From: Thermodesulfatator indicus DSM 15286
GTDB lineage: Bacteria > Desulfobacterota > Thermodesulfobacteria > Thermodesulfobacteriales > Thermodesulfatatoraceae
Direction: 5' to 3'
NCBI RefSeq assembly: GCF_000217795.1
Contig: NC_015681.1
Span: 434,001-498,000, forward strand
DNA: 64,000 nucleotides
Shown: one piece after another, positions 18,699-40,579 of the stretch
How positions within the stretch are numbered: position 1 is the stretch's first letter
Layout: every line of letters begins with the position of its first letter
Notes under the pieces: generated by a model
Seen by the model: only the letters and a program-made list of their open reading frames with translations
What the model was told of the DNA's origin: nothing
The model's database searches: none
Program-made: the position numbers and the translations under genes

Positions 18699-19888
18699 AG
18701 CCCCCTCCCCAGGATTTCAAATATTTTTTTAAGCGGGTTTTTAGGTTGCGTTTTTTGTTTCTCAAGATTCATTTCGCGGCCAAAAAGCACCAGGCCCACG
18801 GCGGTGGCCAGACGCGGATGGTTGACCTCTTCGGTTAAACCGGGAAGCTTTTTCGGATAACCGATTCTTGTAGGTAACTCAAAGATCTGGTCGGCCAGTT
18901 CGAGAAGCCCTGAAAGCAAAGAAGACCCCCCGGTAATTACGGCCCCTGAACCAAGCCGGGGTTTGAGCCCGGAATTTTCAAGCTCGGTGTTTATAATTTC
19001 CAGCAACTCTTCTACCCTAGGTTCAAGGATTTCCGCCAGCACCTGCCGCGAAAGCCTCCTGGCCGGACGGTTTCCGAGCCCCGGCACTTCTATGTACTCT
19101 TCCCTGGGCACCAGCGGTGCCAGGCAACTACCGTAATGAACCTTTAATTTTTCCGCCGCGGCCATAGTGGTTCTCAGCCCAACAGTGAGGTCACTGGTAA
19201 GAATTTGCCCCCCTACTCCCACCGCACTGGTATAGCGCAGGTTACCTTCAAGAAAGATGGCTATATCAGTGGTTCCGCCACCAAAGTCTATCAAAGCCAC
19301 ACCGAGCTGTTTTTCCTCTTCGGTAAGCACAGCCTGCGCCGAGGCAAGAGGCTGTAAAACTACGGCATCCACCGTAAGACCGGCTTTTTCCACACACTTA
19401 ACCAGGTTATGCACCGCCGAAGCCCCGGCCGTAACAATGTGCACCCTAGCCTCAAGGCGCACCCCGCTCATGCCAACTGGTTTTTCAATGCCGCTTTGTT
19501 CGTCAACAATGTATTCCTGCGGGATAGCGTGTAAGATAAGCCGGTCGTTGGGCAGGTTGATGGCCTGAGCCGCCTCAAGCACCCGCTGAACGTCTTCTTC
19601 AGTAACCTCTCCTGACTTTAAAGCAATAACCCCATGGCTTTGCTGGCTACGTATGTGGCTTCCGGCAATCCCTACGATGACGTTGGTAATTTCTTCGCCA
19701 CAGGCCTCTTCTGCCTGCTGCACCGCCTCAATTATGGCACTCACTGTGCTTTCAATGTTTACCACCACTCCACGGCGAAGGCCTGAGGCATTGGCCATGC
19801 CAAGGCCAATAGCCCTTAGTTCACCATCTATCTCCTCCGCCGCGAGACAACATACTTTAGTGGTCCCAACATCAAGCCCTACAATCAT
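18695..19888 (-). CDS. ftsA: Cell division protein FtsA
   Basis: The actin-fold membrane anchor of the Z ring. N-terminal phosphate-1 motif VGLDVGTTKVCCL, the SHS2 insertion (1C domain, about 85-160), phosphate-2 motif ALIDFGGGTTDIAIF and adenosine motif VITGGSSLLSG are all present. A basic C-terminal tail (PKNPLKKIFEILGRGL) forms the amphipathic membrane-targeting helix. Length 397 is normal. It overlaps ftsZ by 4 bases and follows ftsQ by 6 bases. Confidence 0.97.
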   Translation of the reverse strand: MIVGLDVGTTKVCCLAAEEIDGELRAIGLGMANASGLRRGVVVNIESTVSAIIEAVQQAEEACGEEITNVIVGIAGSHIRSQQSHGVIALKSGEVTEEDVQRVLEAAQAINLPNDRLILHAIPQEYIVDEQSGIEKPVGMSGVRLEARVHIVTAGASAVHNLVKCVEKAGLTVDAVVLQPLASAQAVLTEEEKQLGVALIDFGGGTTDIAIFLEGNLRYTSAVGVGGQILTSDLTVGLRTTMAAAEKLKVHYGSCLAPLVPREEYIEVPGLGNRPARRLSRQVLAEILEPRVEELLEIINTELENSGLKPRLGSGAVITGGSSLLSGLLELADQIFELPTRIGYPKKLPGLTEEVNHPRLATAVGLVLFGREMNLEKQKTQPKNPLKKIFEILGRGL

Positions 19889-19894
19889 TTAGTC

Positions 19895-20665
19895 TTAACT
19901 CCTTCGGCCTTTCTTGAATATCAAAGCCGCTGAATTTTCGGGATAATCAAGCCTTACTGTCTTTACTCTCTGGTACTGCTTAGTGTCATAGAGATAAACA
20001 AAAATGCGGTCAAGCTTTTTGTAAGCCTTTTCGTAATCATCCAGCTTATTTCCGGCAAACTTTATCAACAGGGCGTCCCGGGTAAGCAGCAAAAAGCCAT
20101 CGGGCAAAAACTTTATCTGGGAAATATTGGCGTAAGGCGGCACCAAAGTTTCACTTTTCTTGAGCTTGGCCAGAAGTTTTAAAACTTCTACTTTTTGAGC
20201 ATCCAAGCGCCGATTTTTAATTTCTTTTTCAGAAACCCCTTCAAGGGCTGGCAACTCTTTTAATAAATTTTTGGGCGCTCTAGCAAAAATATGGCCTTTT
20301 TCATTCACCAGCCAGATCTCTCCGTTTATGGAAAGCATAGCCAGTGGTTTTTCTTCTCTTACTTTTATAAAGATTTTGTCAGGCAATTTTCGGGAAACAA
20401 AGGCCTCCGCCACCCAAGGGTGAAGTTCAAGGCGCTTTTTTATATCTTGAAGATTAAGGGCAAAAATATTGGTCCCAAGGAGAAGGTCCGCCTTTTCAAA
20501 AACTTCTCGCTTATTGAGAAAACGCTTACCTTCTATGGTTATTTCTACGCCTGAAAGGGCAAAGTAAGGGCTTTTTTTGATATAAACCCCTCCTGCTACC
20601 AGAGCAGCCAAAACCGTAAGCCCCATTAGAACTATAAGAAACCGTTTACCCTTCACCCACCACAC
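19895..20665 (-). CDS. ftsQ: Cell division protein FtsQ
   Basis: A bitopic divisome protein linking early and late components. A membrane helix lies at about residues 9-28, followed by the POTRA region (SPYFALSGVEITIEGKRFLNKREV) and the FtsQ beta domain. The GTG at 20665 is chosen: AGGAGGAG lies just upstream inside murB, and this start limits the overlap with murB to 20 bases. The longer frame to 20806 would add 47 residues of murB-antiphase sequence with no FtsQ character. Length 256 is normal. Confidence 0.92.
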   Translation of the reverse strand: MWWVKGKRFLIVLMGLTVLAALVAGGVYIKKSPYFALSGVEITIEGKRFLNKREVFEKADLLLGTNIFALNLQDIKKRLELHPWVAEAFVSRKLPDKIFIKVREEKPLAMLSINGEIWLVNEKGHIFARAPKNLLKELPALEGVSEKEIKNRRLDAQKVEVLKLLAKLKKSETLVPPYANISQIKFLPDGFLLLTRDALLIKFAGNKLDDYEKAYKKLDRIFVYLYDTKQYQRVKTVRLDYPENSAALIFKKGRRS

Positions 20666-21536
20666 GAAGCTCCTCCTCAAGTTCCATCCCAAAAAGCTGA
20701 AAAACCCTTTCTTTGGCAAAATTAATAAGACGCAAAATATCCTGGGCTCTTGCCCCATCCCGATTGACGATAAAATTGGCGTGTTTGCGGGAAATTTCTG
20801 CTCCACCGGCCCGCAAACCTTTGAGACCTGCCTGGTCGATCAAGGCCCCTGCGGAAAAACCAGGGGGGTTTTTAAAAATACAGCCCGCAGACGGCTCGTT
20901 AAGGGGCTGAGTCTTTTTCCGTCTGAAGAGATAATCAGCTATGCGCTTGTTTATGGCCTCTTGAGAGTCTTTTTTAAGACGCAAATTAACGGCTACAATC
21001 ACCGCCTCATCAGGAATACTTGAAAAACGATACGAAAAAGTGAGCTGCCCCCGCGAAAGAGAAAAAAAACGCCCTTCTTGATAAATCGTAACTTCTTCCA
21101 CCAGGGAGCCTATCTCCTGGCCAAAGGCCCCGGCATTCATTTTGACGGCTCCACCAACGGTAGCCGGAACTCCTGCCATAAATTCAAGGCCTGACAAACC
21201 GCGTTCGGCACAAAGTGTAAGGAACCTAGCCAGCGGCACTCCAGCCCCAGTCCGAACTAATTCGTCTTCAAATTCTACGAAATCAAGTTTTTCAAGAGAG
21301 ATAAAAGCTCCCCTAAAACCACCGTCTCTCACCAAAAGATTGCTTCCTCCGCCTAAAAAATAAGTAGGTATATTTTCCGCTTCAAATATTTCAAAACCGC
21401 GGGAAAGTTCCAAAAAATTGCGCGGATAAAACAGATAGTCTGCCGGCCCGCCCACTCTAAAAGTGGTGAGGCGAAAAAGGGGCACTTTTTCTTTTACTAA
21501 AAGACCTTCTTTAGCAAACAGATTAGTAATCTTCAT
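20646..21536 (-). CDS. murB: UDP-N-acetylenolpyruvoylglucosamine reductase MurB
   Basis: A flavoenzyme making UDP-MurNAc from UDP-GlcNAc-enolpyruvate with NADPH. The FAD-binding PCMH-type region shows TTFRVGGPADYL, GGGSNLLVRDGGF and AGVPATVGGAVKMNAGAFG. The catalytic region has SYRFSSIP and EPSAGCIFKNP, and the type I family glutamate is expected near the C-terminus. Length 296 is normal. It overlaps murC by 4 bases and ftsQ by 20. Confidence 0.97.
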   Translation of the reverse strand: MKITNLFAKEGLLVKEKVPLFRLTTFRVGGPADYLFYPRNFLELSRGFEIFEAENIPTYFLGGGSNLLVRDGGFRGAFISLEKLDFVEFEDELVRTGAGVPLARFLTLCAERGLSGLEFMAGVPATVGGAVKMNAGAFGQEIGSLVEEVTIYQEGRFFSLSRGQLTFSYRFSSIPDEAVIVAVNLRLKKDSQEAINKRIADYLFRRKKTQPLNEPSAGCIFKNPPGFSAGALIDQAGLKGLRAGGAEISRKHANFIVNRDGARAQDILRLINFAKERVFQLFGMELEEELRVVGEG

Positions 21537-22921
21537 GCCACCTCGCGCTCTCGCAATCCTAGTTCTTCTAAAAGCTTCTCACCCAGGCGATAAACGTTTC
21601 CCGCACCCATGGTCACAAAAACATCTCCGGGCTTTAAGACATCCAGGGCTCTCGCCAGCGCCAATCCCTCTCCTGAAACAAAGTAGGTAGGTCCTTTCCG
21701 TCTTCGGGCAAGGGCTTCGGCTAATTTTTCTCCCGTAATCCCGGCAATGGGCTTTTCTGAAGCCGGATAAATCTCCGTTACCAAAAGCACATCTGCCTCG
21801 TCAAAACACTTAATAAAATCATCAAAAAGGGCCTTGGTGCGCGTATAGCGGTGCGGCTGAAAAAGAATTACCAAGCGCCTTTTGGGAAAAGACTTCTTAA
21901 AAGCCGCTATGGTGGTCTCAATCTCTCTGGGGTGATGGGCGTAATCGTCAAACACGAGGATATCGCCAGCTTTGCCTTTTAAGTCAAAACGCCTTCTAAC
22001 CCCTTTGAAATCCGAAAGGCCCTTTCTTATATCTTTAAAAGAGATCTCAAGAGTTCGGGCCAAAGCCACGGTGGCCAGAGCATTTAAAATGTTGTGTTTG
22101 CCAGGAAAGGGCACCACCACCTCGCCCAGGATCTTGTCGTTTTCAAACACGGCAAAAACCGAACGAGCCCCTTCTTTTATAACCCGCGCCCTGTAAAAGG
22201 CCTGCTCCTCGAAACCGTACGTGAGGTATTTGGCAGAAGGCTTTCTTTTTAAAAGCTTTTTAACGCCCGGATCGTCAAGGCAGACTATCACTTTGCCTTT
22301 GACTTGATCTACAAATCTGACAAAGGCCTCAAGGATTTCGCCAAAATCCCGGTAAAAGTCTAGGTGTTCTTTATCAATGTTGGTGATAATGGCGTGCTCA
22401 GGAGTCATTCTAAGAAAAGAGCCGTCACTTTCATCGGCTTCCGCCAAAAGATATTCCCTTTCTTCTCCCAGCCAGGCGTTGCCGTCAAAGCCGTTTACTT
22501 TGCCTCCCACCACCACCGTGGGGCTTAGACCGCCTTTGGTTAACACCGAAGCCAGCATGGAAGTAGTGGTGGTTTTTCCATGGGCGCCGGTAACCACCAG
22601 ATTGTGCCGATGAAGGGCCATGATTTCCACAAGCATTTGCGCCCTTGGCACCACCTTCAAACCCAGCTCGCGCGCCCGTTTGATCTCGGGGTTATCCTCA
22701 GACACCGCTGACGAATAAACTACAAGCTCGGCCCCTTCCACCTGCTTGGGATGATGGCCGTAGTAAACAATGGCCCCCTCTTCAGCAAGCATCCTCGTAG
22801 TTTCAGAGGCATTTAAGTCAGACCCCGAAACATCAAAACCAAGACGCAGGAGCAGGCGAGCTAGCCCACTCATGCCTATTCCGCCAATTCCTATAAAATG
22901 AACCCGTTTATATTCACGCAT
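21533..22921 (-). CDS. murC: UDP-N-acetylmuramate--L-alanine ligase MurC
   Basis: The first amino-acid ligase of the peptidoglycan stem peptide: ATP-dependent addition of L-Ala to UDP-MurNAc. N-terminal Rossmann motif HFIGIGGIGMSGLA, P-loop VTGAHGKTTTTSM, and the Mur-ligase centre ITNIDKEHLDFY and FDDYAHHPREI are all clear. Length 462 is normal. It overlaps both murG and murB. No ddl gene follows murB, unlike many dcw clusters. Confidence 0.97.
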   Translation of the reverse strand: MREYKRVHFIGIGGIGMSGLARLLLRLGFDVSGSDLNASETTRMLAEEGAIVYYGHHPKQVEGAELVVYSSAVSEDNPEIKRARELGLKVVPRAQMLVEIMALHRHNLVVTGAHGKTTTTSMLASVLTKGGLSPTVVVGGKVNGFDGNAWLGEEREYLLAEADESDGSFLRMTPEHAIITNIDKEHLDFYRDFGEILEAFVRFVDQVKGKVIVCLDDPGVKKLLKRKPSAKYLTYGFEEQAFYRARVIKEGARSVFAVFENDKILGEVVVPFPGKHNILNALATVALARTLEISFKDIRKGLSDFKGVRRRFDLKGKAGDILVFDDYAHHPREIETTIAAFKKSFPKRRLVILFQPHRYTRTKALFDDFIKCFDEADVLLVTEIYPASEKPIAGITGEKLAEALARRRKGPTYFVSGEGLALARALDVLKPGDVFVTMGAGNVYRLGEKLLEELGLREREVA

Positions 22922-23981
22922 AAGCGATTAATTCCTCCAATTCTTTGACAATTATTTCAGCCGCATTTTGCGGAAGCACGCCAGAAAGGCTTTGCGCCAT
23001 CTTCTGACGCCGTCCTTCATCAGCAAGAAGAGCGCTTAAAGTATCCAGTAGCTTTTCCTCTGAAAGTTCCTCCTCACGCATGACAAGAGCCCCGCCTCGC
23101 CTAGCCAGCACCTTAGCGTTATGAAACTGGTGGTCACCTATGGCGTAAGGGTAAGGGATAAAAATCGCCGGCTTTTGCAAGGTAGCCACCTCAGCCACGG
23201 TAGAAGCCCCGGCTCTAGCCAGCACCAGATCCGCCTGGGCGTAAGCCCAGCCCATATCGTGGAAAAAGGGCTTAACCACCACTTTGTCTGAAAACTCCCG
23301 GAAAGCCTCTTTTACCCAGGAAAAATCCCGCTCTCCTGTTTGATGGAAAAGACGAACTGTGGGCACTCTTTCAAAGAGAAGCGGGAATACCTTGACTATA
23401 AGTTCGTTTAAGCGGTGTGCTCCTTGTGAACCCCCGGTTACCAGGAGCCCTATCCCGTCATGTTCCCGAAGGCCGCAAGTTATTTCCTTTCTTACCGGCA
23501 TGCCAGTGACGACCGTGCGCTCTTCAGGAAAATGGGCCTTACTTTCCGGAAAGGTGACAAGAATACGATGGGCTAATTTAGCCAGAAAAAGATTGGCCCG
23601 TCCGGGTACGGCGTTTTGTTCGTGAATGGCCCTTTTGATGCTTGCGAGGCGGGCCGCTAGCATTACAGGCACGGAAGCATATCCTCCCACACCTAGCACC
23701 ACCTGGGGAGAAAACTCTTTTAAAATTTTTAAAGCCTTGCCCGTGGCCACAAACATCTTGCCAAGGGCGCGCACTTTGGCGCTAAAGGCCCTACCTAAAA
23801 CCCCTTCTACCGGCAAATACTTCACCTGATAAGGAGTTCTTTCCGCCACCAGTTTTTCAATTTTTCGCCCACTACCAACCAGTAGCACTTTGCCTCCAAG
23901 CGCCGTAATTTCTTCGGCCACCGCCAAGGCCGGAAAAAGATGCCCCCCGGTGCCGCCTCCAGTTATCACCACTTTCATCAA
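22914..23981 (-). CDS. murG: Undecaprenyldiphospho-muramoylpentapeptide N-acetylglucosaminyltransferase MurG
   Basis: A GT-B glycosyltransferase that makes lipid II from lipid I at the cytoplasmic membrane face. N-terminal glycine-rich loop ITGGGTGGHLFPALAVAEE, GVGGYASVPVMLAA, the second glycine loop LVTGGSQGAHRLNEL and the acceptor/UDP-GlcNAc region ARAGASTVAEV are present. Length 355 is normal. Its start overlaps the murD stop by 4 bases, so there is no room for ftsW, which normally stands between them. Confidence 0.97.
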   Translation of the reverse strand: MMKVVITGGGTGGHLFPALAVAEEITALGGKVLLVGSGRKIEKLVAERTPYQVKYLPVEGVLGRAFSAKVRALGKMFVATGKALKILKEFSPQVVLGVGGYASVPVMLAARLASIKRAIHEQNAVPGRANLFLAKLAHRILVTFPESKAHFPEERTVVTGMPVRKEITCGLREHDGIGLLVTGGSQGAHRLNELIVKVFPLLFERVPTVRLFHQTGERDFSWVKEAFREFSDKVVVKPFFHDMGWAYAQADLVLARAGASTVAEVATLQKPAIFIPYPYAIGDHQFHNAKVLARRGGALVMREEELSEEKLLDTLSALLADEGRRQKMAQSLSGVLPQNAAEIIVKELEELIAYA

Positions 23982-25369
23982 TGGTAAGTCACCAACTGAG
24001 AACGGTTATCTTCACCCAAAAACTGGGGAGCGTAACCTTTTACCAACTCTTTAAAAACATCGCCGCGTTCCTGATAATTTTCAAACTGATCAAAGCTAGC
24101 CGCGGCTGGAGAAAGCAAAACAGTATCTCCAAGAGTAGCCTCTGAAATAGCCACTGCTACTGCTTCTTCAAGGTTTTCTACAATTTTCATATCCGTACAT
24201 TCACGCAGATCCTCGGCCATAACGTAGCGAGACTCTCCCATAAGGATTAAAAGCTTCACTTTTCTTTTTATTTCACCCATCAAAGGCCGATAAGAAGAGC
24301 CTTTATGCTTACCACCCATGATGAGAATAATAGGCGCACTAAGACCCCTTAGGGCCTTTAAAGTGGCGTCAACATTGGTGGCTTTAGAATCATTAACAAA
24401 GTAAACCCCACCAAAAGTTCCCACGAACTCTAGGCGATGGGGAAAACCGATAAAGCTTTTGATAGCCTCTTTGATTCCTTGAGGGGTAGCTCCTAGCAGA
24501 CGAGCAGCCAACGCCGCCACCGTAAAGTTCAGACGATTATGCTCTCCCAAAAGCTTAAAGCCAGCGAGAGAATACTCTTCAGGCCCGCTTGGCAGGTGTA
24601 AAACAAAAGAGCTTCCTTTAAGCTCAGCCCCATTAGTCCCTTTTTTGCCAAGGAAAAACATTTTTGATTTTGGAGTTGGAAGAATTTCTAAAAGCTCTTC
24701 TGGCAAAATAACAAAATCTTCGGGGGTTTGATTTTCGTAAATACGAGCCTTGGCCAGGGCGTATTCTTTAAAGCCTGCATAGCGTTCCAGGTGATCAGGC
24801 GTAATGTTTAAAATCACCGCCACTTGAGGCCTGAAAGTATCAATACTTTCAAGCTGGAAACTTGAAGTCTCAAGCACCAAATAATCAGCCTTCTGGCCAT
24901 TTATAATAAACTCAGAAAGGGGCGTGCCGTAATTTCCCCCTACAAAGACCTGCTTGCCTGAAAGTCGCAAAATATCTGTAGCCATAGCCGTAGTAGTGGT
25001 TTTTCCGTTGGTGCCGGTAATAGCTAGGATTTTTTTTCCGGGCAAAAGGAAGCGATAACCTAACTCAAGCTCGCCTATCACGGGGATATTTCTTTCACGA
25101 GCCGGAGCGGCTGCATCAGGAGGCACACCAGGGCTTATAACCACCAAATCCGTCCCTTCAAAAACCTCTGGACGATGGGCTCCGGTATCGAAAAGAACAC
25201 CCTGTTCCTCAAAATTATGCACCAGAGATTGAGGTAATTTTTCTTTTGGGCGACTATCAGAGACGACCACCCTGGCCCCTGCAAGCAAAAGCAAGCGCGT
25301 GGCCGCTTGCCCTGAACGCCCAAACCCAAGGACTACCACTTTTTTACCGGCTAATTTGCCTTCTAACAT
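23978..25369 (-). CDS. murD: UDP-N-acetylmuramoylalanine--D-glutamate ligase MurD
   Basis: Adds D-Glu to UDP-MurNAc-L-Ala. N-terminal VVVLGFGRSGQAA, P-loop ITGTNGKTTTTAM, the central NITPDHLERY with the carbamate-lysine region and FVNDSKATNVDATLKAL are the family landmarks. Length 463 is normal. It lies 6 bases after mraY in transcription order and overlaps murG by 4 bases. Confidence 0.97.
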   Translation of the reverse strand: MLEGKLAGKKVVVLGFGRSGQAATRLLLLAGARVVVSDSRPKEKLPQSLVHNFEEQGVLFDTGAHRPEVFEGTDLVVISPGVPPDAAAPARERNIPVIGELELGYRFLLPGKKILAITGTNGKTTTTAMATDILRLSGKQVFVGGNYGTPLSEFIINGQKADYLVLETSSFQLESIDTFRPQVAVILNITPDHLERYAGFKEYALAKARIYENQTPEDFVILPEELLEILPTPKSKMFFLGKKGTNGAELKGSSFVLHLPSGPEEYSLAGFKLLGEHNRLNFTVAALAARLLGATPQGIKEAIKSFIGFPHRLEFVGTFGGVYFVNDSKATNVDATLKALRGLSAPIILIMGGKHKGSSYRPLMGEIKRKVKLLILMGESRYVMAEDLRECTDMKIVENLEEAVAVAISEATLGDTVLLSPAAASFDQFENYQERGDVFKELVKGYAPQFLGEDNRSQLVTYH

Positions 25370-26452: not shown

Positions 26453-27826
26453 CTAAGTTTTTTCCTCCAAGAGCCAATCGACAATTTTTTCCATAGCCAT
26501 GGCGCGCGAGCCTTTCACAAAAACAAGGCTCCCCTGATTAACGACTGACCTTAAAGCTGAAAAAAGGGCCTCTTTATCAGAAAAGATGTTAACCTTTTCG
26601 CCACCTCCGCGGGCAATGTCTCTGGCATATTCGCCTACGGCCAGTATTTGGTCACAAACCTGGGCCAGCACCCGCCCCACCTCTTCATGATAAAAAGGAG
26701 CTTTCTCGCCAAGCTCTTTCATGTCTCCTACCACGGCCACTACCCGAGAAAATTCCTGCCGAATAGCTTTTAAGACCTCGGCCGCGGCCTTAAAAGAAGC
26801 GGGGTTGGCGTTGTAGGTATCGTCTAAGATGATAATACCTCCCGCTTGCTTAACTTCCATGCGGTGAGGAGCAGGTTTTAATTTTTCAAGTTTGGGCAAA
26901 AGTTCTGGCAAGCTCAGGCCTGCGGCTAAAGCCCCGGCCAAGGCCGCCAGGGTATCAAAGACAAAAGGTCTTCCAAGAAGAGGAATTTCTACATCGTAAT
27001 CCTCTCCCTCAAAAGAAATTTTTACTCGAGTGCCTTTTAAACTAACCGAGAGAATCCTTCCCCTTAGGTCAGATCCTTCTTCAAAACCAAAAGAAATCTC
27101 ACGGCCTTTATGTTTAAGCGAGTAAACATGTTCCTTTACTTCTTTCTGGTCATAAGGATAGACCCACACTGCTTGTGGCGCTTTAACAAAAACGTCTATC
27201 TCTTCTTTGAAGACATTTTCCGGCGTGCCCAGACCTTCCAGATGAGAAGGTGCAGAGCCCAGAAAAATGGCTACCTCAGGTGAGGCTATCTCCGTTAACC
27301 TCGCAATTTCTCCAGGAAGATTGGTGCCAAGCTCAAGTACCAAAAATTCAGCCTCGGGTAGGGTATTCAAAATGGTCAAAGGGAGCCCGATAAGGTTATT
27401 CCAGTTCCAGGGAGTCTTAAAAGTTTGATAGTCTTCAAGCAAAGTAGCCAGAATTTCTTTGGTGGTGGTTTTACCGCAGGTGCCACTTATGGCTATTACC
27501 TTGGCTTTGAGCTTTTTACGCCAGTAAGCCGCAAGATCTTCCAGAGCTTTTACAGTATCAGAAACTTTTATTACCGAGATAGCCTTATGCAGTTTAAAAA
27601 TATTTATCTCCTCGGGCCAATGAGAAACCAGCAGACCCCTAGCACCATTTTCAATAGCTTCAAGCACAAAGTCGTGTCCGTCAAAACGTGGACCTTTTAT
27701 GGCCACGAAAAGCTCTCCCGGCTTTATAGTCCTGGTATCATGGCTAACCCCGGTAAAAGACACACCCATATCCCCATTAAGGAGTATTCCACCAGTAGCC
27801 CTAACCACGTCTTCAGTAGAAATCAT
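26453..27826 (-). CDS. murF: UDP-N-acetylmuramoyl-tripeptide--D-alanyl-D-alanine ligase MurF
   Basis: Adds the D-Ala-D-Ala dipeptide to the stem tripeptide. The N-terminal substrate domain has DTRTIKPGELFVAIKG. The P-loop is ISGTCGKTTTKE, and the later DDTYNANPASFKAA is the MurF signature. Length 457 is normal. It overlaps murE by 4 bases and abuts mraY. Confidence 0.97.
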   Translation of the reverse strand: MISTEDVVRATGGILLNGDMGVSFTGVSHDTRTIKPGELFVAIKGPRFDGHDFVLEAIENGARGLLVSHWPEEINIFKLHKAISVIKVSDTVKALEDLAAYWRKKLKAKVIAISGTCGKTTTKEILATLLEDYQTFKTPWNWNNLIGLPLTILNTLPEAEFLVLELGTNLPGEIARLTEIASPEVAIFLGSAPSHLEGLGTPENVFKEEIDVFVKAPQAVWVYPYDQKEVKEHVYSLKHKGREISFGFEEGSDLRGRILSVSLKGTRVKISFEGEDYDVEIPLLGRPFVFDTLAALAGALAAGLSLPELLPKLEKLKPAPHRMEVKQAGGIIILDDTYNANPASFKAAAEVLKAIRQEFSRVVAVVGDMKELGEKAPFYHEEVGRVLAQVCDQILAVGEYARDIARGGGEKVNIFSDKEALFSALRSVVNQGSLVFVKGSRAMAMEKIVDWLLEEKT

Positions 27827-29265
27827 GCTTCCTCCTCAGTGAGCAGTTCCCGCAGGACCTCGCGGTCGGAAAAAGGAATACGTTTGCCAGAAATTTCCTG
27901 ATAGTCTTCGTGGCCTTTGCCGGCCACTAAAAGCACATCGCCTTTTTCCAAGGCAGAAACGGCTTTGACCATAGCCTGGTAACGATCAGGTTCCACTAAA
28001 AAGGGAGTCTTTTTCATCCCTGCCATGATGTCGTTTATTATGTCTTCTGGCTTCTCGGAACGAGGATTATCAGAAGTAAGAATGACGATATCTGCCAGGT
28101 CTTCAGCCACCTGTCCCATAAGTGGCCGTTTTCCTTTATCTCTATCGCCTCCACAGCCGAAAAGAACTATAAGCCTCCTGGCCATGGGTTTAAGGCTCTT
28201 TAAGGCCACGGCCAGGGCCTCTGGGGTATGGGCGTAGTCAACAAATATCAGGGCCCCGTTCTTCTGGCCGACGGGCTCAAGCCGCCCTGGAGGAGGCTTA
28301 AGCTCACGAGAACAGGAAAGGAGGTCTTCAAAAGAAAAGCCGAGGGCCAGGCCGCATCCTATAGCTATGAGGAGATTTTCCAGTTGAAAATCTCCGTAGA
28401 GGGTCGTCGCCAAGGGATACTTTTGGTGGCCGTATTCCAAAAGAAAGGAGTAGCCCGCTTGAGAACGCTCTGTCACCATCCCCCTAAGATCCTCCCCTAT
28501 CTTAATAACGGGCGCAGAGATTTCCTCAGCGAGCCTCCTTCCCCATGGGTTGGCCACGTTTATCACGGCCTGGCCCGAAGCTCTCAAGTATTCGGTAAAA
28601 AGTTTTTTCTTGGCCTGGTAATAGGCCTCCATGGTGCCGTGGTAATCAAGATGGTCGCGGCTAAGGTTGGTAAAACCCGCCACGTGATAGGCAAGACCGG
28701 CCACTCTATCCTGATCAAGGGCGTGGGAAGAAACCTCCATGACCACGTGCCGATAATCAGCCTGGCGCATAGCCGCCAAAAGGGCTCTTAGTTTTACCGG
28801 GCCTGGCGTGGTAAGCGAGGCCCTTGAAAGCCCTAGCCCGGTATCATAAAAAATCGTACCAATGAGCCCTACCCCGCCGGTGAGCTTGACCAAAATCTGG
28901 TAAAGAAAATAAGTAACCGAGGTCTTGCCGTTGGTTCCAGTAACCCCTATAAAAATAAGGTCTTTTTCCGGGTAATCGTAAAAAGCGCTGGCCAGCTCAG
29001 GAAGGGCCTTACGTGTGTCAGGTAAAACCACCTGGGCAATGTTGTCTGGCAAATCGAGCTTTCTTTCCGCCAAGATGGCCACGGCCCCGGCCTCAAGGGC
29101 TTGCGGGATAAATTTATGCCCATCAGCCGAGGTGCCCCGGCAGGCTACAAAGGCATACCCCGGCTTTACTTCGCGAGAATCATCAGTTAAGCCAGCTATC
29201 GGCGTCTCTGGCCGATGCAAAAACTCGGGCCTTAAATTTTTTATAAGCTCTTCAAGACGCTTCAT
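27823..29265 (-). CDS. murE: UDP-N-acetylmuramoyl-dipeptide ligase MurE
   Basis: Adds the third stem-peptide residue. Signatures: LTDDSREVKPGYAFVACRG, P-loop GVTGTNGKTSVTY, NLSRDHLDYHG, VDYAHTPEAL and the substrate-selecting motif TSDNPRSEKPEDII. DNPR at this position is the motif of enzymes that add meso-diaminopimelate, so the peptidoglycan is probably of the mDAP type. Length 480 is normal. It overlaps the FtsI-like gene and murF by 4 bases each. Confidence 0.97.
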   Translation of the reverse strand: MKRLEELIKNLRPEFLHRPETPIAGLTDDSREVKPGYAFVACRGTSADGHKFIPQALEAGAVAILAERKLDLPDNIAQVVLPDTRKALPELASAFYDYPEKDLIFIGVTGTNGKTSVTYFLYQILVKLTGGVGLIGTIFYDTGLGLSRASLTTPGPVKLRALLAAMRQADYRHVVMEVSSHALDQDRVAGLAYHVAGFTNLSRDHLDYHGTMEAYYQAKKKLFTEYLRASGQAVINVANPWGRRLAEEISAPVIKIGEDLRGMVTERSQAGYSFLLEYGHQKYPLATTLYGDFQLENLLIAIGCGLALGFSFEDLLSCSRELKPPPGRLEPVGQKNGALIFVDYAHTPEALAVALKSLKPMARRLIVLFGCGGDRDKGKRPLMGQVAEDLADIVILTSDNPRSEKPEDIINDIMAGMKKTPFLVEPDRYQAMVKAVSALEKGDVLLVAGKGHEDYQEISGKRIPFSDREVLRELLTEEEA

Positions 29266-30617
29266 CTAAGAACCAGCCTGCATTTGGTAATTTTTTTAAG
29301 AGGAGTGCCAGGAGCAGGCCACTGGCTAACTGTAACTCCAAAACCCTGAAACTCAGCCTCAAGCCCAAGAGCTGAAAGCGTCTCCAGGGCCTCTTTTAAA
29401 GTCAGGCCTCTGAGGTCTGGCATCCTGTTTTCGGGAATTTTTCGGGGAGGTTTCTTTTCATTAGCAACCTTATAAAACCGGCTATCTTTCACCGCCTGAG
29501 GAATAAAACGGGTGTAGTAACACGGAAGCCCGTAAGCCTTAACACCTTCCAGATAAACCAAGAAGGCCTCTTTAGGATTTTTCCGCGGCCAGAGCCCGGC
29601 TATCACAAAAGAGCCCACTTTGTAACTTCCGCCCCACCACCACACACCGCCTCTTTCAAGAGGCGTAATCTTATCAAGGTTTTTGGTTTCTACCGAAATA
29701 GTTTCTTCTTCCTTGCCAATCCTGATTTCTTTGGCAAGTTTAGGTGAAAAAAGTTTTCCTGTGGAAAGCGCCGCCAAAGCCCTTACCAGCTGAACTCCAG
29801 AAGCCCTAACGTCTTCTAAAGAAGAGATAGCAGGAGGCAAAAGCCCCGGCTCTTCGTTAGGCAGGTCAATACCAGTGGCCTCACCAAAACCCAAATCCCT
29901 CAAGAACGAGGCCATATCTTCATAAGAGCTTTTTTCAAAATTACCTTCAAATACCTTGCCTAAAACCTCCAAAGGGATGCGAGGTTTAAACAAGATTTCT
30001 TTGTCTCCTTTACTTACCAGAGCCTTTATCCTTCCTGTTTCTAAATCAAGGATAATGGCTCCGCCCCTTTTAGCCCTAAGTCTTTTTAGGCTACGGTTCA
30101 GGTCTTCAAAAAGGGCTTTTTGCTTTTCTATTTCTATGGAGGTTACGAGGTAAGACCCTTTACGTCTCAAAAGCTTGTAATAATAAGCCTCAACTCCTGA
30201 AAGCCCATCATCGCCAAGAAAAGCACTGCATATATCTTTATATGGATAACTTCTTTCAAAATAATTTTTAGGGAAAACCCCTTCTATTTCAGGCACGAAC
30301 TTCACCCTTTGAAACAAAACCGGCTCTTTGTGGGTAGCCAGAAACAGAGAGAGTTCCTCTTCTTTTTTACCAAGGGCCTTGGCTAAAGTTTCTATATTTT
30401 TAGGCGAGGGCGAAAAGGCCCCTGGCACCAGAAGTAATCCGGTACGGGTTATTGACTCGGCAAGAGTACGTCTCTCAAGGTCATAAACCGGTCCAAGGGA
30501 TCTTACACCACTTTTTTCAGGAAGAATTGGCTCAGGGGACGAAAAAAGATAGGCCTTTTCTCCTGCCAAAATAAGTAAAGCTATTCCTATCAGGCCCAAA
30601 AGCCAGACTTTTTTCAT
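29262..30617 (-). CDS. ftsI: FtsI-like penicillin-binding protein homologue, transpeptidase motifs degenerate
   Basis: It occupies the ftsI position and keeps the overall FtsI plan: N-terminal membrane helix (about 5-20), a pedestal region with GPVYDLERRTLAES, and a transpeptidase-fold stretch from GAIILDLETGRIKALV (about 186-201) through LRDLGFGEATGIDLPNEEPGLLP. A C-terminal PASTA domain lies at about 398-451. The three active-site motifs appear lost. The SxxK position seems to read ILFK (208-211), SxN reads SSY (230-232) and KTG(T) reads KVGS (333-336). About 60 residues normally between the first two motifs are mostly gone. At 451 residues it is shorter than the usual 550-650. It overlaps murE by 4 bases and follows ftsL by 1 base. 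Probably a structural divisome protein rather than an enzyme; this is inference. Confidence 0.85.
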   Translation of the reverse strand: MKKVWLLGLIGIALLILAGEKAYLFSSPEPILPEKSGVRSLGPVYDLERRTLAESITRTGLLLVPGAFSPSPKNIETLAKALGKKEEELSLFLATHKEPVLFQRVKFVPEIEGVFPKNYFERSYPYKDICSAFLGDDGLSGVEAYYYKLLRRKGSYLVTSIEIEKQKALFEDLNRSLKRLRAKRGGAIILDLETGRIKALVSKGDKEILFKPRIPLEVLGKVFEGNFEKSSYEDMASFLRDLGFGEATGIDLPNEEPGLLPPAISSLEDVRASGVQLVRALAALSTGKLFSPKLAKEIRIGKEEETISVETKNLDKITPLERGGVWWWGGSYKVGSFVIAGLWPRKNPKEAFLVYLEGVKAYGLPCYYTRFIPQAVKDSRFYKVANEKKPPRKIPENRMPDLRGLTLKEALETLSALGLEAEFQGFGVTVSQWPAPGTPLKKITKCRLVLR

Positions 30618-30618
30618 T

Positions 30619-30936
30619 TTACCTCAACCTAACCACCTGTTCTTTTTTAGGAGGATGGAGGCCAAACTCTTTGGCCTTTTTCAAAACTACTTCTTTTGAA
30701 GTAAGGGTTTGGTATTCGCGGTCAAGCATAGTTACTTGATGCGAAAGAAGGGCTACTTCTTTTTTCAAACTCCTGTATTGAAAGTACTTTTGCCCTAGTA
30801 AGGCCCCTCCCACCAAAAACAAAACAGCAAGCATCCCTAAAACAAATTTTTTAGCCCAGACTCCCCATAGAGAGAGGGTTGTGGCCTGGCTTTTTCTGGT
30901 TTTATGGTTAAGCACATAGGCTGTTCTTGCTCCCAT
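30619..30936 (-). CDS. ftsL: Cell division protein FtsL
   Basis: A small bitopic divisome protein (105 residues) with a cytoplasmic basic N-terminus, a membrane helix at about 31-48 and a periplasmic heptad-repeat coiled coil (about 52-85) that pairs with FtsB/FtsQ-type partners. It is recognised by topology and by position between rsmH and the ftsI homologue, since FtsL sequence conservation is low. It has a GGAGG ribosome-binding site and lies 9 bases after rsmH. Confidence 0.85.
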   Translation of the reverse strand: MGARTAYVLNHKTRKSQATTLSLWGVWAKKFVLGMLAVLFLVGGALLGQKYFQYRSLKKEVALLSHQVTMLDREYQTLTSKEVVLKKAKEFGLHPPKKEQVVRLR

Positions 30937-34753: not shown

Positions 34754-35029
34754 ATGGAGTTTTACTTCGTTGAAAAGGACCAGGTGCTAGAGTTAAACAT
34801 TGACGGCGAGCAAGTAACTTACGTATTCCTCAAAAACGAGCCAGGCAAAATAACCTCTGATAGACTTTATTTTGCCCCTTCAGACGAAATCAAACGCGTT
34901 ATAGACCGCTTCCGCGAGGCAGGCTATAAAGACTTTTCCGTCAAAGTCTTCACCGATAAGAGTCAAATTTTTGGCATTTCAAGTAAAGACCGCAACATAG
35001 CTTTTTTTGAGGGGGGCAAACTGTGCTAG
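34754..35029 (+). CDS. Hypothetical protein upstream of pseB
   Basis: A 91-residue soluble protein, rich in charged residues and predicted beta/alpha (MEFYFVEKDQVLELNIDGEQ..., DEIKRVIDRFREAGY). No membrane segment, metal motif or known domain is recognised. The GTG start of pseB lies 7 bases inside its 3' end, so it is translationally coupled to the pseudaminic-acid genes and may belong to flagellin glycosylation. The ribosome-binding site (GGGAG) is moderate. Confidence 0.7.
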   Translation: MEFYFVEKDQVLELNIDGEQVTYVFLKNEPGKITSDRLYFAPSDEIKRVIDRFREAGYKDFSVKVFTDKSQIFGISSKDRNIAFFEGGKLC

Positions 35030-36021
35030 ACGACAAAGTGATTCTTATCACAGGCGGTACTGGTTCTTTCGGGTATAAGTTTACGGAACTAACCTTTAAA
35101 AAATTCAAACCAAAAAAGATTATTATTTTTAGCCGTGATGAATACAAACAATTTGAAATGGCTAAAGTTTTTCCAGAAAAAAAATATCCCATTCGTTTTT
35201 TTATAGGAGATGTAAGAGATAAAGAACGCCTTTACCGCGCTTTTGACGGCGTAGATATCGTTATTCACGCGGCAGCTCTTAAACAAGTACCCACGGCAGA
35301 ATATAACCCATTTGAAGCTGTAAAGACGAACATTCTAGGAGCAGAAAACGTTATCAACGCTGCCATAGACAGAGGTGTGAAAAAAGTAATAACATTATCC
35401 ACAGATAAAGCAGTAAGTCCCGTAAATCTTTACGGAGCAACAAAACTCGTAATGGAACGCTTATTTGTAGCTGGTAATGCTTACGCAGGATCTAAAGAAA
35501 CCAGTTTTTGTGTAGTACGTTACGGAAACGTAGTGGGTAGTAGAGGAAGTGTAGTTCCGTTTTTTTTGAAATTAGCTAAAGAAGGAAAAAAAGAATTCCC
35601 TATCACGGACGAAAGAATGACCAGATTCTGGATAACATTAGAAGAGGGAGTAAAGCTAGTTTGGAAAGTAATAGAAACTGCTAAAGGAGGAGAGGTATTT
35701 GTTCCCAGAATACCTTCTATGAAAATAGTTGACCTTGCTAGAGCAATATCTCCAGAATGTAAATTTAAAATTATAGGTATTCGTCCAGGCGAAAAAGTTC
35801 ACGAAACTTTAATTTGTGAAGAAGAAGGGCGTAAAACTAAAAAATTGGATGATAACACTTTTGTTATTCTTCCTCAATTTCAGTGGAGAGCAAACCTTTT
35901 AAAACAATATGAAAAACTACCATCCGTACCGGAAAAATTCATTTATAGAAGCGATAAAAATGATTGGTGGCTTTCCGTAGACGAACTCAAAGAAATGTTA
36001 AAAGGGGTAAAGGTTGATTAA
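35023..36021 (+). CDS. pseB: UDP-N-acetylglucosamine 4,6-dehydratase (inverting) PseB
   Basis: The first enzyme of CMP-pseudaminic acid synthesis. A short-chain dehydrogenase fold with TGGTGSFGYKFTEL for NADP, GDVRDKERLYRAF, HAAALKQVP and a catalytic STDKAVSPVNLYGATK region (YxxxK variant). Length 332 is normal. It starts at GTG, overlapping the preceding gene by 7 bases, and overlaps pseC by 8 bases. The order pseB-C-F-G/H-I follows the pathway closely. Confidence 0.95.
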   Translation: MLDDKVILITGGTGSFGYKFTELTFKKFKPKKIIIFSRDEYKQFEMAKVFPEKKYPIRFFIGDVRDKERLYRAFDGVDIVIHAAALKQVPTAEYNPFEAVKTNILGAENVINAAIDRGVKKVITLSTDKAVSPVNLYGATKLVMERLFVAGNAYAGSKETSFCVVRYGNVVGSRGSVVPFFLKLAKEGKKEFPITDERMTRFWITLEEGVKLVWKVIETAKGGEVFVPRIPSMKIVDLARAISPECKFKIIGIRPGEKVHETLICEEEGRKTKKLDDNTFVILPQFQWRANLLKQYEKLPSVPEKFIYRSDKNDWWLSVDELKEMLKGVKVD

Positions 36022-37174
36022 GTATATTCCTTACGGAAAGCAATACATAGATCAAGACGATATTAAAGCCGTTGAGGAAGTTTTAAAAGCAGACTTTATT
36101 ACTCAGGGGCCAAAAGTTCCTGAGTTTGAAAAAAAACTTGCTGAATACTGTGACGCAAAGTACGCAGTAGTTTTTAATTCTGGAACCTCGGCTCTTCATG
36201 CAGCTTACTTTGCCGTCGGCCTAAAAGAAGATGATGAGTTTATTACTACTCCCATTACCTTTGTAGCCACAGCTAACGCTGGACTTTTTTTAAGAGCTAA
36301 ACCCATTTTTATAGATGTGGAAGCTAATACGGGAAACATAGATGCATCCAAAATAGAAGGAAAAATAAGTTCACAAACAAAACTAATAGTTCCTGTTCAT
36401 TATGCAGGGCATCCTTGCGACATGGAGAAAATTAAAGAAATAGCTGATAGATATGGTCTTTCTATAGTTGAAGATGCTTGTCATGCATTAGGAGCAAAGT
36501 ATAAAGGATCCAAAATAGGAAGTTGTAAATATTCTGATGCTACTGTTTTTAGCTTTCATCCCGTTAAACACATAACAACCGGTGAAGGTGGAGCTGTTTT
36601 AACTAATAGAGATGATATTTATGAAAAACTTTTAATGTTTAGAAATCATGGAGTAACAAAAGAGGAAGAAAAATTCGTTAAAATGAAAGAAGGTGATTGG
36701 TATTACGAAATGCAGTTTTTAGGTTTTAACTACCGTATGACCGATATTCAGGCAGCTTTAGGGATTTCTCAGTTAAAGAAACTTGATAAATTTGTAGAAA
36801 GAAGAAGAAAAATTGTAGAAATTTATAATAAGGCTTTTGATTATAATCCATATTTTGATATTCCAGTTGAAAAAGATTATGCTTATCACTCTTATCATTT
36901 ATATCCTATAAGATTAAAAAACAACTATAAGGACAAGAAAAAAGAAATATTTCAGCTTCTAAGAAGGAAGGAATTGGGTGTTCAGGTTCATTACATACCG
37001 GTTTATATGCATCCATACTATCAGCAGTTAGAATACAGAGAAGGAGAGAGTCCAGTAGCAGAGGAGTTTTATAAAAGAGAGATAAGTTTGCCTTTATATC
37101 CTGCTATGACGGAAGAGAATGTAAACTTCGTTATAGAAACTGTTTTTAATATGTTTAAAGAGGCAACTAAATGA
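36014..37174 (+). CDS. pseC: UDP-4-amino-4,6-dideoxy-N-acetyl-beta-L-altrosamine transaminase PseC
   Basis: A PLP aminotransferase of the DegT/DnrJ/EryC1 family acting on the PseB product. Visible: FNSGTSALHAAYFAVGL, PVHYAGHPCDM, VEDACHALGAKYKG and the PLP-lysine region FSFHPVKHITTGEGGAV (about residue 182). Length 386 is normal. It overlaps pseB by 8 bases and pseF by 4. From here to about 39.5 kb the DNA is distinctly AT-rich. Confidence 0.95.
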   Translation: MIKYIPYGKQYIDQDDIKAVEEVLKADFITQGPKVPEFEKKLAEYCDAKYAVVFNSGTSALHAAYFAVGLKEDDEFITTPITFVATANAGLFLRAKPIFIDVEANTGNIDASKIEGKISSQTKLIVPVHYAGHPCDMEKIKEIADRYGLSIVEDACHALGAKYKGSKIGSCKYSDATVFSFHPVKHITTGEGGAVLTNRDDIYEKLLMFRNHGVTKEEEKFVKMKEGDWYYEMQFLGFNYRMTDIQAALGISQLKKLDKFVERRRKIVEIYNKAFDYNPYFDIPVEKDYAYHSYHLYPIRLKNNYKDKKKEIFQLLRRKELGVQVHYIPVYMHPYYQQLEYREGESPVAEEFYKREISLPLYPAMTEENVNFVIETVFNMFKEATK

Positions 37175-38007
37175 AAATAGGAGCAATTATTCAAGCAAGG
37201 ACGACATCTACAAGATTACCAAAAAAGGTTTTAAAGGAACTTCCATATGGTAGTGGTATTACTGTTTTGGAACAGGTTATACGTAGAGTAAAAAGATCAA
37301 AACTACTTGATGAAGTAATAATAGCAACTACAATCAATTCTGAAGATGACCCAATAGTTGAGATTTCAAAGAGAGAGGGAATAAAATGCTTCAGGGGAAG
37401 CGAAAAAAATGTTCTTGAAAGGTACTATTTGTGTGCCAAGGAGAACAAAGTTGATGTAGTAGTAAGGATAACAAGTGATTGTCCTTGCATTGATTGGGAA
37501 GTTATAGATAAAGTGGTAGATAGATTACTTGAAAAAGGTTTAGACTATGTAGGAGTGGAGAGAAGCTATCCTCATGGATGTGGGGATGTAGAAGCGTTTA
37601 CCTTTAAGACTTTAGAAATAACATATAAAGAAGCAAATAATGATTTTGAAAAAGAGCATGTTTGTCCTTATATTTACTTTACTAACAAAGATAAATTTAA
37701 AATTAATTTTTTAAAAGCACCTTCGTATTTAACTGCTCCAGATATAAGAGTAACTCTTGATACAGAAGAAGATTACGCTTTACTCTGTGCAGTTTTTGAT
37801 TATTTATATTCTCGAAACAACTACTTTCAAGCAGTTGACATAATTAACCTTTTCAAAGAGAAGTCTTGGCTTAAACTAATAAACAGGAAAGTTTTACAGA
37901 AAAAGATTTTCCATTCCTTAGAAGAAGAACTTGAAGAAGCTAGAAAACTGTTAGAACTACAGGAATTAAACAAAGCAAAAGAAGCAATAGAAAAGTGGAT
38001 GGTTTGA
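37171..38007 (+). CDS. pseF: Cytidylyltransferase for pseudaminic acid (PseF role)
   Basis: A nucleotidyltransferase that should activate pseudaminic acid to its CMP form. N-terminal IIQARTTSTRLPKKVL is the signature of SpsF/NeuA-like enzymes, followed by RITSDCPCIDWEVIDKVVD and TLDTEEDYALL. The C-terminal 40 residues are a helical Glu/Lys-rich extension not typical of the family. Length 278. It is identified as the PseF of the pathway by its place between pseC and the pseG-pseH fusion; the sequence branch is SpsF-like. Confidence 0.8.
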   Translation: MKIGAIIQARTTSTRLPKKVLKELPYGSGITVLEQVIRRVKRSKLLDEVIIATTINSEDDPIVEISKREGIKCFRGSEKNVLERYYLCAKENKVDVVVRITSDCPCIDWEVIDKVVDRLLEKGLDYVGVERSYPHGCGDVEAFTFKTLEITYKEANNDFEKEHVCPYIYFTNKDKFKINFLKAPSYLTAPDIRVTLDTEEDYALLCAVFDYLYSRNNYFQAVDIINLFKEKSWLKLINRKVLQKKIFHSLEEELEEARKLLELQELNKAKEAIEKWMV

Positions 38008-39464
38008 GGGTCTATATCCTTACAGAAGGTAGCAGTAGTATAGGTTTTGGCCACGTCACAAGATGCTTATCTTTATACCAAGCTTTTGAGGAAAGAGGTA
38101 TAAAACCAAAGTTTATTGTAAATGGCGATAAATCTATAGTAGAACTTCTAAAAGGCACAAATTATGAAATAGTTAACTGGTTAAAAGAACAACAAAAAAT
38201 CTTTAAAATAGTGAAAGATTCGGATATAGTCGTTGTTGATAGCTATTTGACAGATAAAAACTTTCATGAAAATTTATCTAAACTCGTAAAACTTCCTGTC
38301 TATATAGATGACAACAAGCGAATAGATTATCCAAAAGGCGTAGTTGTTAATGGAAATATTCATGCAGAGGGCTTAAACTATCCCAGAAGAAAAGAGGTAA
38401 TATACTTACTTGGGACTAAATACATTCCTTTAAGAAAGGAATTCTGGGAAGTTCCAGAAAAAGAGATAAGAAAAACAATACAAAGTGTTATGGTAACCTT
38501 TGGAGGAGATGATATAAAAAAGATGACCCCAAAGGTCTTAAAATTACTAAATGAAAATTATCCTGAACTAAAAAAGAATGTCATTATAGGAAAAGGATTT
38601 CATAATGTTGATGAAATAAAAACTGTAGCTGATGAAAATACGAACTTAATATACTATCCTAATGCAGAAGAGATAAAACAAGCAATGCTTGACTATGATA
38701 TTGCCATTTCAGCAGGTGGTCAAACACTATACGAGCTTGCAAGGGTTGGCGTTCCTACGATTGCAGTTGCTGTTGCTGATAATCAACTTAAAAATGTAAA
38801 AGGGTGGGAAAAAACAGGTTTTATAGAATATACTGGATGGTGGAAAGATAAATATGTGTTAGACAATATTATTTTTTCAATAGAAAAGTTGAAAGGGTTT
38901 GATGTTAGACTAAATAGATATATTATAGGAAGGAGACTTGTAGACGGTATCGGAAGCCTAAGAAATATAAGTAAAGTTCTAAAAATTCTAATAAATAAAG
39001 AATTAATCTTTAGAGAGGTAAAAGAAAGAGATATTTGGGACATATATGAGATTTCTAATGATAATACTGTAAGGCAAGTATCGTTTAATTCTAATCATAT
39101 AGATAAAGAAGAACACAAAAGATGGTTTGCAAATAACTATAGGAACAACTTTTATGTAATTGTGTTTCGAAGGAAAGTAATAGGTCAAATAAGATTTTCC
39201 GTTAAGAGTGAAAACAATGAAGCAATAGTCAGTATTAGTTTACATAGAAATTATAGACAATTGGGATTAGGAAAATTTCTTTTGAAAAAAGGTCTTAAGA
39301 AATTCCTAGAAGGAAATAAAAGTATAACTAAGATTATAGCTCTTATAAAGAAGTCAAATTACAAATCTAAATCTTTATTTGAAAGTGTAGGTTTTGAGAA
39401 AGCAGAAAATAACGGTGAGTGGTTTAGATATGAACTTACGAGGGATAAACATGAAGGAATTTAA
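37995..39464 (+). CDS. pseG: Fusion of PseG (UDP-sugar hydrolase) and PseH (N-acetyltransferase)
   Basis: A two-domain protein of 489 residues. The N-terminal part (about 1-335) is PseG, the GT-B-like hydrolase releasing UDP from the trideoxy-altrose intermediate: TEGSSSIGFGHVTRCL, VVDSYLTDKNF, MVTFGGDD and ISAGGQTLYELARVG. The C-terminal part (about 338-485) is a GNAT acetyltransferase matching PseH: FREVKERDIWDIYEISND and LHRNYRQLGLGKFLL for acetyl-CoA. PseH acts two steps before PseG, so the fusion joins neighbouring activities. The GTG at 37995 is used; a TTG at 38004 is possible. It overlaps both neighbours. Confidence 0.9.
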   Translation: MDGLRVYILTEGSSSIGFGHVTRCLSLYQAFEERGIKPKFIVNGDKSIVELLKGTNYEIVNWLKEQQKIFKIVKDSDIVVVDSYLTDKNFHENLSKLVKLPVYIDDNKRIDYPKGVVVNGNIHAEGLNYPRRKEVIYLLGTKYIPLRKEFWEVPEKEIRKTIQSVMVTFGGDDIKKMTPKVLKLLNENYPELKKNVIIGKGFHNVDEIKTVADENTNLIYYPNAEEIKQAMLDYDIAISAGGQTLYELARVGVPTIAVAVADNQLKNVKGWEKTGFIEYTGWWKDKYVLDNIIFSIEKLKGFDVRLNRYIIGRRLVDGIGSLRNISKVLKILINKELIFREVKERDIWDIYEISNDNTVRQVSFNSNHIDKEEHKRWFANNYRNNFYVIVFRRKVIGQIRFSVKSENNEAIVSISLHRNYRQLGLGKFLLKKGLKKFLEGNKSITKIIALIKKSNYKSKSLFESVGFEKAENNGEWFRYELTRDKHEGI

Positions 39465-40503
39465 AATTGCTAATAGGAAAGTGGGAAATAATGACTCTGT
39501 ATTAATAATCGCTGAGCTTTCAGCAAACCACAAACAGGATATTGAACTTGCCAAAGATACGATCCATGCTATGAAAGAATCAGGAGTTGATGCTGTAAAA
39601 CTTCAAACTTATACACCGGATACTATTACTATTGATTGTAGTAGTGAATATTTCCAGATTAAAGGTGGAACTCTATGGGATGGAAAAACTCTATATGAAC
39701 TTTATAAAGAAGCTTATACTCCATGGGAATGGCACTATGAGTTAAAAGAACTTGCTGAAAAGTTAGGACTTATTTTTTTCTCCACGCCCTTTGATAAAAC
39801 AGCAGTTGACTTTTTAGAAAAGTTAAATGTCCCTGCTTATAAAATAGCTTCTTTTGAGATAACAGATATTCCACTTATAGAGTATGCAGCTTCAAAAGGA
39901 AAACCGATGATAATTTCTACTGGGATAGCAACTCTTTGTGATATTCAAGAAGCAGTTGAAGCTTGTAAAAGAGTTGGAAATGAACAAATAATACTCTTAA
40001 AATGTACTTCTGCTTATCCTGCACCTTTAGAAGAAGTAAACTTGAAAACAATTCCAAACATGGCAGAAACCTTCAACTGCATAGTGGGACTGTCAGACCA
40101 CACTCTTGGAATTTCTGTTCCAATTGCAGCCGTGGCTCTTGGAGCGAAGGTTATAGAAAAACACTTTATCTTATACAAAGAAATAGAGACACCAGACAAA
40201 GAATTTTCTCTGACTCCAGACGAATTCAAAGATATGGTAAATGCCATAAGAGAAGTTGAAAAAGCCCTGGGCCAGGGATCTTACGAAATTACAGAAAAAG
40301 TAAAAAAAGCTAAAGAGTTTGCAAGGTCTTTATTTGTCGTAAAAGACATTAAAGAGGGAGAAACTTTCACAGGAGAAAATATTCGTTCCATACGTCCTGG
40401 TTACGGTTTACATCCAAAATATTTAAAAAACGTTATTGGTAAAAAAGCTAAGAAATTTCTTAAGAAAGGCACACCTTTAAAGTGGGAACACATTGATTTT
40501 TAA
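39451..40503 (+). CDS. pseI: Pseudaminic acid synthase PseI
   Basis: Condenses the 6-deoxy-AltdiNAc sugar with phosphoenolpyruvate. An NeuB-type TIM barrel (IIAELSANHKQDIELAK, DAVKLQTYTPDT, GLSDHTLGISVPIAAVALGA) is followed by a C-terminal SAF/antifreeze-like domain from about residue 290 (ARSLFVVKDIKEGETFT). The ATG at 39451 is chosen because GAGGG lies 7 bases upstream and it gives the normal 350-residue length; the frame is open further up to 39394. Confidence 0.95.
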   Translation: MKEFKIANRKVGNNDSVLIIAELSANHKQDIELAKDTIHAMKESGVDAVKLQTYTPDTITIDCSSEYFQIKGGTLWDGKTLYELYKEAYTPWEWHYELKELAEKLGLIFFSTPFDKTAVDFLEKLNVPAYKIASFEITDIPLIEYAASKGKPMIISTGIATLCDIQEAVEACKRVGNEQIILLKCTSAYPAPLEEVNLKTIPNMAETFNCIVGLSDHTLGISVPIAAVALGAKVIEKHFILYKEIETPDKEFSLTPDEFKDMVNAIREVEKALGQGSYEITEKVKKAKEFARSLFVVKDIKEGETFTGENIRSIRPGYGLHPKYLKNVIGKKAKKFLKKGTPLKWEHIDF

Positions 40504-40579
40504 TTGAAACCTTTGCAAATTATGACAAAAAGGCTTGCAATAATAGGGCAAGCTGGCACTGTTTAATTATCCCCCTTAA

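Follow-up and report, generated by a model that had tools for sequence, protein, structure and literature searches.

A catalytically degenerate FtsI homologue in the FtsW-less dcw cluster of Thermodesulfatator indicus and its relatives

Does the gene at the ftsI position in the dcw cluster of the thermophilic bacterium Thermodesulfatator indicus DSM 15286 still encode a septal cross-linking enzyme, and what could it contribute to division if it does not? The FtsW–FtsI pair was long held to be universally required for septal wall synthesis, and the first organism reported to depart from this rule was C. difficile (PMC10693644, PMC12539705). We analysed a stretch of 64,000 nucleotides (the window; NC_015681.1, positions 434,001 to 498,000), in which an earlier sequence-only reading had recognized an FtsI homologue that keeps a membrane anchor and a PASTA domain without the three transpeptidase motifs. 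That reading suggested that the protein acts only as a divisome scaffold, with septal cross-linking done by another enzyme.

Identification of the gene at the ftsI position

The gene order of the cluster is mraZ, rsmH, ftsL, the degenerate ftsI, murE, murF, mraY, murD, murG, murC, murB, ftsQ, ftsA and ftsZ. The degenerate gene lies between ftsL and murE, as expected of ftsI, starting 1 bp after ftsL and sharing 4 bp with murE. Its features and neighbours are as follows.

29262–30617 (−): degenerate FtsI, 451 aa, lacking SxxK, SxN and KTG (ORF with an ATG start)
30543–30611 (−): N-terminal membrane anchor, residues 3–25 (helix in the AlphaFold model; low pLDDT at residues 19–30)
30165–30506 (−): pedestal (PBP_dimer-like), residues 38–151 (weak Pfam match and structural match to PBP3)
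29478–30164 (−): transpeptidase-domain remnant, residues 152–380 (sheet and C-terminal helix retained; helical active-site subdomain largely deleted)
29955–29966 (−): lost SxxK site, now V218-L-G-K221 (alignment with intact FtsI)
29265–29426 (−): PASTA domain, residues 398–451 (Pfam; better conserved within the family than any other segment)
30619–30936 (−): ftsL (weak FtsL/DivIC profile matches and position)
27823–29265 (−): murE (4-bp overlap with the FtsI-position gene)

The homology of the protein to FtsI is secure because it was found at E = 5e-29 by a profile of 13 intact FtsI proteins from the same phylum. Pfam identified the PASTA domain at residues 398–445 (E = 4e-9) and a Transpeptidase match restricted to model positions 113–192 of 299 (E = 3e-8); the PBP_dimer match was marginal in T. 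indicus and reached E ≤ 0.01 in five of eight relatives. An AlphaFold model, computed from a 9-sequence alignment including three intact FtsI proteins (pLDDT, 84; pTM, 0.71; mean pLDDT of the other four of five models, 57–69), is PBP3-like across residues ~30–390 and places a PBP3-like pedestal behind the single N-terminal anchor, as is characteristic of class B PBPs. Foldseek matched the model to SpoVD (E = 1e-22) and P. aeruginosa PBP3 (E = 5e-21), and VIA gave Z scores of 28.8 and 28.2 for the same two proteins, respectively, and 26.3 for FtsI of the FtsWIQBL complex. Locus order, profile, Pfam and model therefore all bear out the earlier assignment, and the structure prediction that it had called for recovered a PBP3-like fold (Z, 26–29) without most of the helical active-site subdomain. 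Gene position, anchor, pedestal, transpeptidase-type sheet, PASTA domain and fold are all shared with FtsI/PBP3, whereas the T. indicus protein lacks the three motifs, is ~200 residues shorter and has no FtsW partner.

Loss of the transpeptidase active site

Alignment with intact FtsI confirmed that SxxK, SxN and KTG, the motifs by which a class B PBP is recognized, are all absent. The loss described in the sequence-only reading therefore stands, but the motif registers that it gave (ILFK, SSY and KVGS) do not: the SxxK columns align to V218-L-G-K221 and not to ILFK (residues 208–211); the SxN segment and its flanks are deleted, and SSY (residues 230–232) adjoins the gap in an uncertain register; and the KTG strand now reads GGVWWWGGS, KVGS (residues 333–336) being the beta turn after that strand. 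Across the family, the SxxK columns are occupied by VLGK, SLSE, VLSK, WVGS, WISE, ALSK and PVLD, and in no aligned family member do serine and lysine co-occur there.

An alternative in which the active site has moved and the protein still cross-links is very improbable, for even though parts of the fold are retained, K221 of this one protein aligns with the SxxK lysine and an isolated S-x-Y at residues 230–232 recurs in its family (f1), the serine–lysine pair is missing from the SxxK columns throughout the family and the helical active-site subdomain is mostly deleted. A sequencing or assembly error was ruled out: T. autotrophicus (loci L100 and L031), the nearest named relative identified (76% identity), and every other cluster read in the order share the same architecture. 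The T. indicus protein, an enzyme homologue that has lost its catalytic residues and remains under selection (see below), is accordingly predicted from its sequence to be a pseudoenzyme descended from FtsI.

Absence of FtsW and the remaining wall enzymes

The cluster also lacks ftsW, as is evident from the following features.

23978–23981 (−): overlap of murD and murG at the expected ftsW site; ftsW absent
22914–23981 (−): murG (sequence and gene order)
23978–25369 (−): murD
19895–20806 (−): ftsQ (position and family-wide conservation)
18695–19888 (−): ftsA
17544–18698 (−): ftsZ

The murD and murG genes overlap by 4 bp with no ftsW between them. We searched the genome, a single closed contig of 2,322,224 bp, for division genes family by family and found one SEDS gene (L001:2523–3611), located beside PBP2 downstream of mreBCD; no second SEDS gene that could provide an FtsW partner was present in this closed genome. 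The sole SEDS protein was best matched by the NCBIfam RodA model, but with a score (292.7) below the cut-off (336.7). The RodA proteins of families f17 and f54, unlike that of T. indicus, pass this cut-off easily, and the divergence of the latter might mean that its role has altered or is twofold. FtsL, FtsQ, FtsA and FtsZ are encoded in the cluster, and a candidate FtsB elsewhere in the genome.

Three PF00905 proteins, and no further ones, were found in the closed genome, namely PBP2 (STFK, SCD and KTG), PBP1A (SAFK, SRN and KTG) and the degenerate FtsI. PBP1A is the only class A PBP with a GT51 domain, no second GT51 protein being present in the closed genome, and two YkuD-family proteins are possible L,D-transpeptidases. 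Another class B PBP, for which the sequence-only reading had advised a search, thus exists in the form of PBP2, beside RodA in the mreBCD locus, and the proposal that another enzyme performs septal cross-linking gains support, since no D,D-transpeptidase of the PBP1/PBP2 type other than PBP2 and PBP1A is intact. The loss of FtsW, overlooked in that reading, widens the picture beyond the degenerate FtsI alone: with FtsW lost, the protein cannot scaffold the usual FtsW–FtsI synthase.

Distribution in the order and selection on the degenerate gene

Each of the 41 genomes of the order, which span 10 genera in three families, has a single SEDS gene; the two SEDS matches in one genome (G026) are fragments. 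All clusters read in the order lack ftsW (murD–murG gap, −1 to −35 bp), and in each the gene that separates ftsL from murE is motif-less; none has an intact gene at the ftsI position, so the loss of the motifs extends across the lineage, a point that the earlier reading had left to be checked. The motif-less gene encodes 522 aa in f2, about 450–475 aa in f1, 370–392 aa in genera g6, g8 and g9 of f3, and 291–340 aa, without PASTA, in genera g5, g7 and g10 of f3. Partial PF00905 matches (~115–130 positions) in f3 genera were considered as further candidates for ftsI but, once read, were classed as DacA-type carboxypeptidases; the gene that does occupy the ftsI position was located adjacent to rsmH. 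The shortest degenerate FtsI of the order (291 aa) occurs in a 99% complete MAG (G028; dcw cluster L074) in which no GT51 domain was found. RodA–PBP2 would be the sole wall synthase of these types in this MAG, and the GT51 absence could be an assembly gap.

Compared with T. autotrophicus, the degenerate ftsI has a dN/dS of 0.143, and its neighbours range from 0.04 to 0.12 (MurE, 0.109; MurB, 0.115). The best-conserved parts are the PASTA domain (93% identity to T. autotrophicus), the C-terminal transpeptidase part (90% for its face) and the first transpeptidase strands and helix. No stop codon or frameshift was present in any ftsI-position copy read across three families. It could be argued that the gene no longer functions in division and is slowly decaying, given that it shrinks progressively from 522 aa (f2) through ~451 aa (f1) and ~385 aa (f3, g8 and g9) to the 291–340 aa of the other f3 genera and that 0.143 is the highest dN/dS among the dcw genes tested. 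This explanation is improbable, however, because the reading frames are open, the dN/dS is far below 1 and near that of the neighbouring genes, the PASTA domain and the C-terminal face are well conserved between the two species, and the gene position is constant in every cluster read in the order. These observations show that the gene is maintained by purifying selection and agree with the earlier view that the gene, conserved across an order, is not a decaying pseudogene.

Possible role of the degenerate FtsI and the replacement synthase

In the P. aeruginosa complex, FtsI binds FtsL through its pedestal and transpeptidase faces (PMC7614612). The pedestal and transpeptidase regions persist in the degenerate FtsI, while the active-site subdomain has been removed. 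From gene position, the retained interface regions and precedents in other bacteria, we infer that the degenerate FtsI is a retained non-catalytic part of the divisome that positions or activates PBP1A and/or RodA–PBP2 (probability, roughly 0.7). It would stay in the FtsQLB complex, held by the pedestal and by what is left of the transpeptidase faces, and would from there recruit, position or activate a functional synthase at the division site. The best candidate for this synthase would be PBP1A, a class A enzyme, either by itself or with RodA–PBP2, because no other polymerase or D,D-cross-linking enzyme was found. Interface retention is uneven, which counts against this role: the genes of some f3 genera are reduced to 291–340 aa without PASTA, and those of f24 and f53, two other families of the phylum, to 248–318 aa.

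It is also possible, though we judge it somewhat less probable than not, that the elongation synthase RodA–PBP2 makes the septum as well, with the degenerate FtsI as its connection to FtsQLB and the Z-ring. The genome encodes no SEDS protein other than RodA, which is retained in all 41 genomes of the order and is divergent in T. indicus by its RodA-model score; moreover, MAG G028 has RodA–PBP2 without any GT51 match. This speaks against class A PBPs having a universal role and, if the MAG is complete, implies that they are not essential there. Conversely, a 99% complete MAG of family f14 (G139) contains class A-type proteins and no SEDS or PBP2 match, RodA–PBP2 are encoded with mreBCD as in ordinary elongasomes, and in C. 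difficile RodA–PBP2 serve elongation and not division (PMC10693644). The genomes do not decide between PBP1A and RodA–PBP2, and the gaps in both G028 and G139 are possibly due to assembly.

Recurrence across the phylum

Most of the 118 genomes sampled from the phylum carry two SEDS genes. The dcw clusters of f17, f54, f28, f60, f14, f24 and f53 contain no ftsW and a motif-less or stub ftsI (248–644 aa); the f24 and f53 proteins (248–318 aa) retain almost no recognizable FtsI sequence. In the four one-SEDS families where its location was read (f17, f54, f28 and f47), the single SEDS gene lies beside PBP2. FtsI was intact (SxxK, SSN and KTG) in 13 of 13 control dcw clusters with FtsW, and intact motifs were found in none of the 34 ftsI-position proteins from FtsW-less genomes, a strict co-variation that comprises only 3 independent pairs; with so small a number, a sign test could not attain 0.05.

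In a concatenated dcw protein tree, the genomes with a degenerate FtsI do not form one clade, and at least three changes are forced by the starred branches. A single ancestral loss was rejected (AU test, P = 0.0015). As the tree is a quick LG+G4 tree with compositional bias and no outgroup, the claim is limited to more than one origin, with no exact number, and the degenerate state probably arose several times. We lean slightly towards a recurrent non-canonical divisome, in which several Thermodesulfobacteriota lineages would have lost FtsW and each would use a non-catalytic FtsI to direct a class A PBP or RodA–PBP2 to the septum.

Several further features were observed in these families. At the ftsW position of f24 and f53, there is a protein of ~262 aa with 7–9 predicted membrane segments (L089:6085–6879, L090:6107–6892 and L093:6192–6983, all on the minus strand). 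It has no Pfam match, its hhalign probability against FtsW is 0.9%, and it may be either a reduced FtsW or an unrelated acquisition. In G139 (dcw cluster L098), FtsA, a degenerate FtsI and, as wall synthases, class A-type PBPs only were found. The murE and murF genes form one ORF of 978–1045 aa in f54 and f14 (L087:4632–7568, L092:8353–11424, L096:8349–11474 and L098:8479–11616).

Comparison with known systems

The nearest functional precedent is C. difficile, where septum synthesis falls to a class A PBP and the contribution of a class B PBP is non-catalytic (PMC10693644, PMC12539705). Both systems have no working FtsW/FtsI pair in vegetative division, a class A PBP as the candidate synthase and a non-catalytic class B PBP. 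In C. difficile, however, the SpoVE/SpoVD pair of the dcw cluster is intact and serves sporulation, and its PBP3 lies outside this role, whereas the present lineages, which are Gram-negative and do not sporulate, have a deletion of FtsW and an FtsI that is itself degraded. A catalytically dead PBP2B (S309A) of B. subtilis remains able to support division by acting structurally (PMC5656894), indicating likewise that an FtsI-type protein can sustain division without catalysis, but it is an engineered point mutant in a cell with FtsW and the backup PBP3, whereas the present state is natural and fixed, with FtsW gone.

The loss of ftsW from the Thermodesulfobacteria dcw cluster (PMC8871954) and its absence from cable bacteria and Desulfobulbus (Desulfobulbaceae; PMC7873302) have been published; the relevant passages of these papers do not mention a loss of FtsI catalysis, and those of the latter assume that FtsI makes the septal wall. 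In the open-access literature, we found no earlier description of an FtsI pseudoenzyme or of a loss of FtsI catalysis in these taxa. The genomes constitute a natural series in Gram-negative rods in which FtsW was deleted and FtsI cut stepwise from 643 to about 250 aa, probably several times. In this series, what FtsI does structurally can be told apart from its chemistry, and the parts that are selected once catalysis is gone become visible. The series also predicts that, in these groups, genes annotated as 'FtsI, D,D-transpeptidase' have been assigned the wrong activity.

Other features of the window

Judged by eye from its translations, the region at 35023–42586 appears to encode a pathway of the pseudaminic-acid type (PseB, PseC, PseF, PseG fused to an acetyltransferase, and PseI), with a DUF115/Maf-like protein after it, likely for flagellin glycosylation. 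An IS110-type transposase-like ORF was likewise recognized by eye at 14786–15754.
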